DNA of 64,000 bases, taken from positions 1 through 64,000 of the forward strand of contig JACRLO010000006.1 in NCBI GenBank assembly GCA_016235245.1. Reading direction: 5' to 3'. This document shows, piece after piece, positions 17,101 to 18,545 of this stretch; position 1 is the stretch's first letter; every line of letters starts with the position of its first letter. Under the pieces are notes generated by a model. The model saw only the letters and a list, made by a program, of their open reading frames with translations, was not told the origin of the DNA and did no database searches. Source of the DNA: Nitrospirota bacterium (lineage in GTDB: Bacteria; Nitrospirota; Thermodesulfovibrionia; Thermodesulfovibrionales; UBA6898). Both the position numbers and the translations under genes were made by a program.

Positions 17101-17129
17101 TTGACAAGTTAATGAGTATCGAATAAACT
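17101..17129 (+). promoter_or_regulatory. Sigma-70 promoter of the rhodanese gene
   Basis: TTGACA (17101-17106) and TAAACT (17124-17129) are 17 nt apart. The predicted start is near 17136, leaving a ~30-nt leader that contains GGAGG (17155-17159) 6 nt before the ATG. Confidence 0.75.
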
Positions 17130-17165: not shown

Positions 17166-18545
17166 ATGGTTATCAAGATGCTGCGATTATCTGTTGTGTC
17201 TTTAGTAGCGGCAATAGTTCTTTTTGGAACTGCCGGGCTGTCACTTGCAGAAAAGCCTACCGTTTTGGCTCCATGCAAGCAGTGTCATCAGTCCGAAAAA
17301 GACCTGGTAAGGGGCACGCTGGTATCGGTTTCAGAGAAGTTCAAGACCATTAATGTTCAGGTGGGCCAGAAGCTCGTATGGATCATTAAATATGGCGAAG
17401 ACCTGAAGATCACCGGCGCCGACAAACTCTCATCAATCTCCAAGGATAAAGAGATTGGCATCAAGTTCACCGGAGATGAGAAGAAACCTTACGCAGTAAG
17501 CCTCTCGGTAAAGCCGCCGGCAAAGGTAGCCCCGGAAAAGCTTGTGCCTGCTGATGAACTGTCAAAACTCGTCGCAATGGGTCCTGAAAAAGGCGGCTAT
17601 ATGCTCATTGATTCTAGGCCGAAACCAAGGTTCAATGAGGGCCATATCCCCCATGCAATATCACTCGACAATACGAAATTCAATGAACTGAAAGACAAAT
17701 TACTGCCAAAAGAGAAGGACATACTCATTATCTTCTACTGCGGCGGCGTTACCTGAAGATTGAGCCCAGAGTCTGCCCGTCGGGCAGAAGCAGCAGGCTA
17801 TACCAAAGTAAAGGTTTTTCATGACGGCATGCCTGCATGGAAAAAGGCAGGAAATCTTTTAGTCTCAGAACCTTCAGCGCTTAAAGAGCTTTTGGATAAG
17901 GACATTGCTCATGTACTTATCGACCTTCGGGATGCAAGGGAAGCCCAGAATGGCTATATCCCGGGGGCAGTCTCGATTGTTCCTAAAGATCTGGCAGCAG
18001 CAAAAGATAAGTTCCCGGCTGACAAGTCGGCACCGATTATCCTCTATGCAGACAAACTTGACGAAGAAGCCTTCAGGACAGTCAGGGCATGGGGATTCGG
18101 TAATACTTCGCTGTTAAACGGCGGCATTGCTGCCTGGATAAAGGATGACGGCAAGACAGAAACAGGCAAGCTCGCTTCAACCATATCGTATCTTCCCAAG
18201 CCCCGTCCGGGTGAAATTGCAATTGAAGAATTTAAGGCGATTGCAGAACAAGGCTCTCATGATAAGCTTATTCTTGATGTCAGGGAATCTGATGAGGCGA
18301 TGAACGGCATGATACTGGGAGCGGTCAATATACCGGAGAGCACCATTAAGGGCAGGCTTCAGGAACTGCCAAAGGATTCAATAGCTCATTTGCCAACGAA
18401 AAACTCTTTTCTGTTCTTCCGGAATTGCTCAGAATATCCCTGGAAGCGGGCCTGGCAATCCTCGATGTCTATAATTCCGACTTTGCGGTCGAACAAAAGG
18501 ACGACAAAAGTCCTCTTACTCTGGCCGATAAGCGTTCGCACATGA
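17166..18545 (+). CDS. Candidate selenoprotein: exported c-heme, multi-rhodanese protein with in-frame UGA; 3' end truncated
   Basis: The frame has a TGA at codon 197 (17754-17756) and otherwise stays open to 18545. Residues 1-29 are a signal peptide; CKQCH at 37-41 is a c-type heme motif. Three rhodanese folds follow. Domain 1 reads FYCGGVT-(UGA)-RLSPESARRAEAAGY, where homologues as I know them have a second Cys at the UGA. Domain 2 (LIDLRDAREAQNGYIPGA) has no active-site Cys. Domain 3 (LILDVRESDEAMNGM) stops before its active loop at about 18385, where the sequence passes into the region of cysQ in another frame. So the UGA may be Sec, but the missing 3' end means decay or an assembly join must be considered. 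Confidence 0.6.
17772..17788 (+). promoter_or_regulatory. Candidate bacterial SECIS hairpin of the rhodanese gene
   Basis: TCTGCCC (17772-17778) pairs perfectly with GGGCAGA (17782-17788) around a GTC loop. The loop starts after 22 nt counted from the UGA, and its first base is G. Position, stem length and loop G all match the described bacterial SECIS pattern. Confidence 0.65.

Follow-up and report, generated by a model that had tools for sequence, protein, structure and literature searches.

A probable exported rhodanese selenoprotein with three rhodanese domains and a Cys-x4-Sec loop in Nitrospirota

We have characterized a gene of an uncultured Nitrospirota bacterium that very probably encodes an exported, three-domain rhodanese selenoprotein in which selenocysteine (Sec197) lies five residues after Cys192. 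Selenocysteine is the rare 21st amino acid, and comparison of homologous genes makes its insertion at the internal UGA of this gene almost certain. The gene represents a well-supported new branch of the known rhodanese selenoproteins, placed by motif and description, rather than a new kind of selenoprotein.

The gene lies within the window, which is the whole 64,000-nucleotide stretch of DNA analysed (assembly GCA_016235245.1, contig JACRLO010000006.1, positions 1 to 64,000), and its features are collected in Table 1. Translation from the ATG passes through one internal UGA and is closed by a second TGA at 18543-18545. An earlier sequence-only reading of this DNA had located the UGA and its flanking peptide, FYCGGVT-U-RLSPESARRA, in frame with the ATG exactly as we find them. 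That reading ended the gene at 17830, which is wrong; the frame runs on to 18545 with two more rhodanese domains, and the gene is approximately twice as long. A GGAGG sequence just 5' of the ATG agrees with the ribosome binding site that had been suggested. The proposed consensus promoter does match the sigma-70 consensus, but it fits a chance occurrence, as two such sites were found by the consensus scan where 0.9 would be expected by chance.

Table 1. Features of the rhodanese gene (positions in the window)
Feature	Position	Strand	Basis
Sigma-70-like promoter match, TTGACA-17-TAAACT	17101..17129	+	Consensus scan, 10/12; may be chance
Probable selenoprotein ORF, three rhodanese domains, third truncated	17166..18545	+	Translation; Pfam PF00581, 3 stretches, 128 bits
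CKQCH (C37-x-x-C40-H41), putative c-type heme site	17274..17288	+	Invariant motif in homologues
C192-x4-U197 codons, active-site loop of rhodanese domain 1	17739..17756	+	Alignments
UGA codon, almost certainly read as selenocysteine	17754..17756	+	Single alignment column with 54 UGA and 6 Cys
SECIS hairpin, 7-bp stem, loop GUC	17772..17788	+	Conserved and covarying in homologues; fold
Junction of ~240-bp deletion relative to L053	18376..18390	+	blastn against L053 and L018

The UGA codon among homologues

Matches to the protein were present in 44 of 61 genomes (the source genome and its relatives), and every long match but one had exactly one internal TGA. In the scan of named genomes, the matches came from Nitrospirota metagenome-assembled genomes (MAGs) and from two Desulfobulbaceae MAGs. 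Once genomes from across the phylum were added, UGA was found in 54 and Cys in six of the 60 homologues (Nitrospirota and Desulfobulbaceae) with either one at the aligned column, a count that omits one duplicated record and two genes that have some other codon at that place, where their alignment is unsure. The internal TGA occupies a single column of the alignment and the exceptions carry Cys there. Cys-containing homologues, on whose alignment at this position the sequence-only reading had staked its proposal, do therefore exist. In a tree of 59 genes, the Cys state requires at least five separate changes.

For one of the Desulfobulbaceae MAGs, 395 genomes of its phylum were sampled; relatives occurred in 39 of them, most with one internal TGA, and in all five further genes read from this sample the TGA falls five residues after a Cys. 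Comparison of homologues indicates selection at the protein level on both sides of the UGA, continuing past it; changes located 3' of the UGA are mostly at the third codon position (4, 2 and 23 by codon position).

Two further observations concern individual genomes. Genome G303 holds three copies of the family (L084, L097 and L098), one with UGA and two with Cys, and the hairpins of the Cys copies are damaged. A distant relative in another genome (L101 in G081) has TGG at the aligned position, where the alignment is unsure (33% identity, very long branch).

The SECIS hairpin and the selenocysteine machinery

The UGA is followed by the hairpin TCTGCCC-GTC-GGGCAGA, whose stem begins 15 nt and whose loop begins 22 nt downstream; the perfect 7-bp stem, GTC loop and spacing given in the sequence-only reading were all accurate. 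Published rules for bacterial SECIS elements call for a stem of 4-16 bp capped by a loop of 3-9 nt, a G at loop position 1 or 2, a UGA-to-loop distance of 16-37 nt and an MFE of at most -7.5 kcal/mol (PMC13188914, Fig. 2A). Folding of the region after the UGA places the window hairpin within every one of these published ranges, with a 3-nt loop (GUC), a 7-bp stem, a distance of 22 nt and, for the hairpin alone, a folding energy of -10.7 kcal/mol. As a single sequence the hairpin is unusual to only a mild degree (synonymous-codon shuffles, P=0.043; dinucleotide shuffles, z=-2.05), and approximately 4% of synonymous-codon shuffles give an equally long stem within the allowed distance. A hairpin in one gene proves little, and the strength of this one lies in its homologues.

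Each of the 54 UGA genes has, at a fixed distance after the UGA, at least five of the six inner pairs of the stem. Mean pairing reaches 5.87 of 6 at the fixed hairpin, the highest of the 550 offsets tested; the runner-up reaches 4.09 and the average is 2.20. Two-sided changes that preserve pairing were seen in five of eight pairs and 0 of 500 shuffles scored as high; this shuffle test is weakened by the kinship of the sequences, and controls with slid offsets agree with it. A G starts the loop in nearly all homologues, L022 being a UGA homologue without it. A lower stem beneath the hairpin, hinted at by single-sequence folds, was rejected as not conserved (10.6% of cells paired), and an Rfam scan of the region returned no relevant match.

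The stem is damaged in four of the six Cys genes. The Cys gene of genome G275 has kept its hairpin whole, and SelB and tRNA-Sec are still present in that genome, as expected of a recent change to Cys. Genome G012 combines Cys with a damaged hairpin and was found without the SelB wing domain and without a tRNA-Sec over the cut-off, while in G232, which also has Cys, the SelB wing domain was not found and tRNA-Sec is present. The wing domain was detected in 58 of 60 relatives.

The source genome itself has a tRNA-Sec with anticodon TCA. Its SelD (L050, G000:C35:104784-105710) has an in-frame UGA within SSCAGUAAK and is probably a selenoprotein in its own right. SelA and SelB were searched for in this genome and not found. 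In relatives G002 and G003, selA and selB lie together in a block beyond kdsC; the kdsC match of the source genome ends at C25:8000, and the sequence reads N from 8001 to at least 20000 (L096). Because the syntenic place reads N, the absence of SelA and SelB is uninformative. The best match to the SelB model is a 380-aa frame on C24, just 3' of tRNA-like matches, and was assigned to EF-Tu. Taken together, the aligned Cys homologues, the covarying hairpin and the presence of tRNA-Sec and SelD bear out the central proposal of the sequence-only reading, a rhodanese selenoprotein with a SECIS element.

A second rhodanese gene of the same genome (L094:1329-1760, G000:C15) encodes a single domain, contains an in-frame UGA (FYCRGAGUGLS) and has a hairpin downstream of this codon. 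Its counterparts in relatives from the genus have a UGA too.

Protein architecture and other readings of the UGA

In the protein, a signal-like N-terminus and a CxxCH motif precede a small beta domain, which is followed by three rhodanese domains. A Pfam search assigned PF00581 to three stretches, scoring well over the curated cut-off of 22.2 bits (Table 1). The signal peptide that had been proposed holds to the extent that the N-terminus is signal-like, as judged by eye only. The CKQCH motif is present as reported. CxxCH does not vary among 18 aligned homologues, and L037 and L039 have CX4CH. No heme or cytochrome domain over the Pfam cut-off was found in the protein, and the CxxCH region is of low confidence in the structure model; a heme may be attached at this putative site. 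The strands of the beta domain fall within residues 47-115 of the model.

The loop of domain 1 reads C192-GGVT-U197, and the position of U197 is held by Cys in the Cys homologues and in the solved protein BH2092. It is C192, not U197, that aligns with the known catalytic residues of rhodaneses. The claim that the UGA stands at a conserved Cys is right in that six homologues have Cys there, but that residue is the second Cys of a C-x4-C pair and not the Cys aligned with the catalytic one. Cys is absent from the loop of domain 2, and domain 3 has the motif HCxTGxRAE, with C411 invariant in the family. A fold search matched the multi-rhodanese proteins 1yt8, EanB and YnjE with whole-chain TM-scores near 0.2, and because of these scores no function was transferred from them. 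The gene neighbourhood showed no conserved neighbours and gives no clue to the mechanism.

The window copy is truncated. Relative to L053, the deletion has taken out the loop of domain 3 and its Cys, along with the stop codon and the cysQ start, leaving the third rhodanese domain fused to the 5' part of cysQ. The junction may reflect either a real deletion or a misassembly; if the deletion is real, the function of domain 3 has probably been lost in this copy.

UGA is a standard stop, and were it a true stop here, the product would be a protein of 196 residues ending in the middle of a rhodanese domain, with the downstream frame, for which a TTG start exists at 17760, being either a separate gene or debris. 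This is very improbable, given that 54 genes have the UGA inside one rhodanese domain and six have Cys in its place, that downstream changes concentrate at third codon positions, and that the hairpin after the UGA is conserved. We give hardly more than token credence to the idea that TGC or TGT became TGA through sequencing or assembly error, or that the window copy is a decaying pseudogene. The fusion of its 3' end into cysQ by the ~240-bp deletion speaks for decay, and this one copy may have decayed since the deletion, but 5' of the deletion the signs of protein-level selection extend over both sides of the UGA. Because dozens of independent assemblies show this UGA, sequencing error is untenable.

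An altered code, in which UGA would specify Trp or another residue genome-wide, would likewise leave the frame open. We regard it as exceedingly improbable: the homologues have Cys, not Trp, at the aligned position, the genome has a tRNA-Sec with a TCA anticodon, and the gene carries a SECIS-type hairpin. Insertion of selenocysteine is the reading that we adopt below.

Relation to known rhodaneses and proposed function

Rhodanese selenoproteins have been listed in five forms, of which form 1 has the motif UxxS (PMC13188914); this rhodanese-like domain selenoprotein (PF00581) is exemplified by WP_010941598.1 (PMC13188914, PMC9312934). The window protein is likened to form 1 by motif alone, sharing the rhodanese domain, one Sec and a Ser three residues on (U-R-L-S). 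NF041203, a rhodanese-related (seleno)protein, is likewise a rhodanese selenoprotein with a Cys near its Sec, but its motif is CxU where the window protein has C-x4-U, and the latter scores 49.2 bits against a cut-off of 115. TsoB (NF045694), a rhodanese/DsbD fusion-like double selenoprotein with UxxxxU, shares the C/U-x4-U spacing of its two redox residues; it differs from the window protein, which has Cys first, one Sec and no DsbD part, and which scores 54.4 bits against a cut-off of 805. Because these scores are far below the NCBIfam cut-offs, the protein belongs to neither NF041203 nor TsoB.

BH2092 (PDB 3nhv, 3o3w) is the closest solved single-domain match and has the same C-x4-C loop, although it has Cys in place of Sec and only the one domain. 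ExtH of Geobacter sulfurreducens is a rhodanese-like protein of 49 kDa, clustered with the cytochrome selenoprotein ExtKL, and it resembles the window protein by description in its similar size and its occurrence in an anaerobe rich in c-type cytochromes; the available text of the source does not describe ExtH as a selenoprotein, and the window gene has no ext-like neighbours (PMC5877670). In the literature searched, we found no description of the architecture of the window protein.

In the proposed mechanism, SelB with Sec-tRNA-Sec would bind the hairpin during translation, and selenocysteine is almost certainly inserted at the UGA. The product would be exported, as suggested by its signal-like N-terminus and CxxCH motif. 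Cys192 would take up sulfane sulfur as a persulfide, which Sec197 would resolve or reduce through a selenenylsulfide, so that, in the anaerobe periplasm, the protein would move or reduce sulfane sulfur such as polysulfide or thiosulfate. Domain 3, with HCxTGxRAE, might be another place where sulfur is carried, domain 2 might be structural, and a single c-type heme at CxxCH may pass electrons. This periplasmic role for Cys192 and Sec197, with the parts given to domains 2 and 3, is drawn from residue positions and general knowledge of rhodaneses and is put forward tentatively, at somewhat worse than even chances.

A use in selenium delivery or detoxification instead of sulfur chemistry seems to us quite unlikely. 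A role in carrying selenium has been proposed for a selenium-substituted rhodanese, in a reference listed by PMC5877670, but the window protein is apparently exported, away from SelD, and its gene is not linked to selA, selB or selD. The broadest proposal would be that Nitrospirota and Desulfobacterota have a previously unreported family of exported selenoproteins, built from three rhodanese domains with a Cys-Sec pair, a small beta domain and possibly one c-type heme. Such proteins would reduce sulfane sulfur or polysulfide in an electron-linked reaction, with Sec resolving the persulfide. As a joint claim this is rather unlikely to be right in every part.

An annotation that stops at the UGA would split the gene into two fragments. 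Read through, the gene would link selenium to sulfur chemistry, probably periplasmic, in two anaerobic groups. The Cys genes whose hairpin has been lost offer a natural test of why Sec is used in place of the second Cys in the C-x4-C pair.
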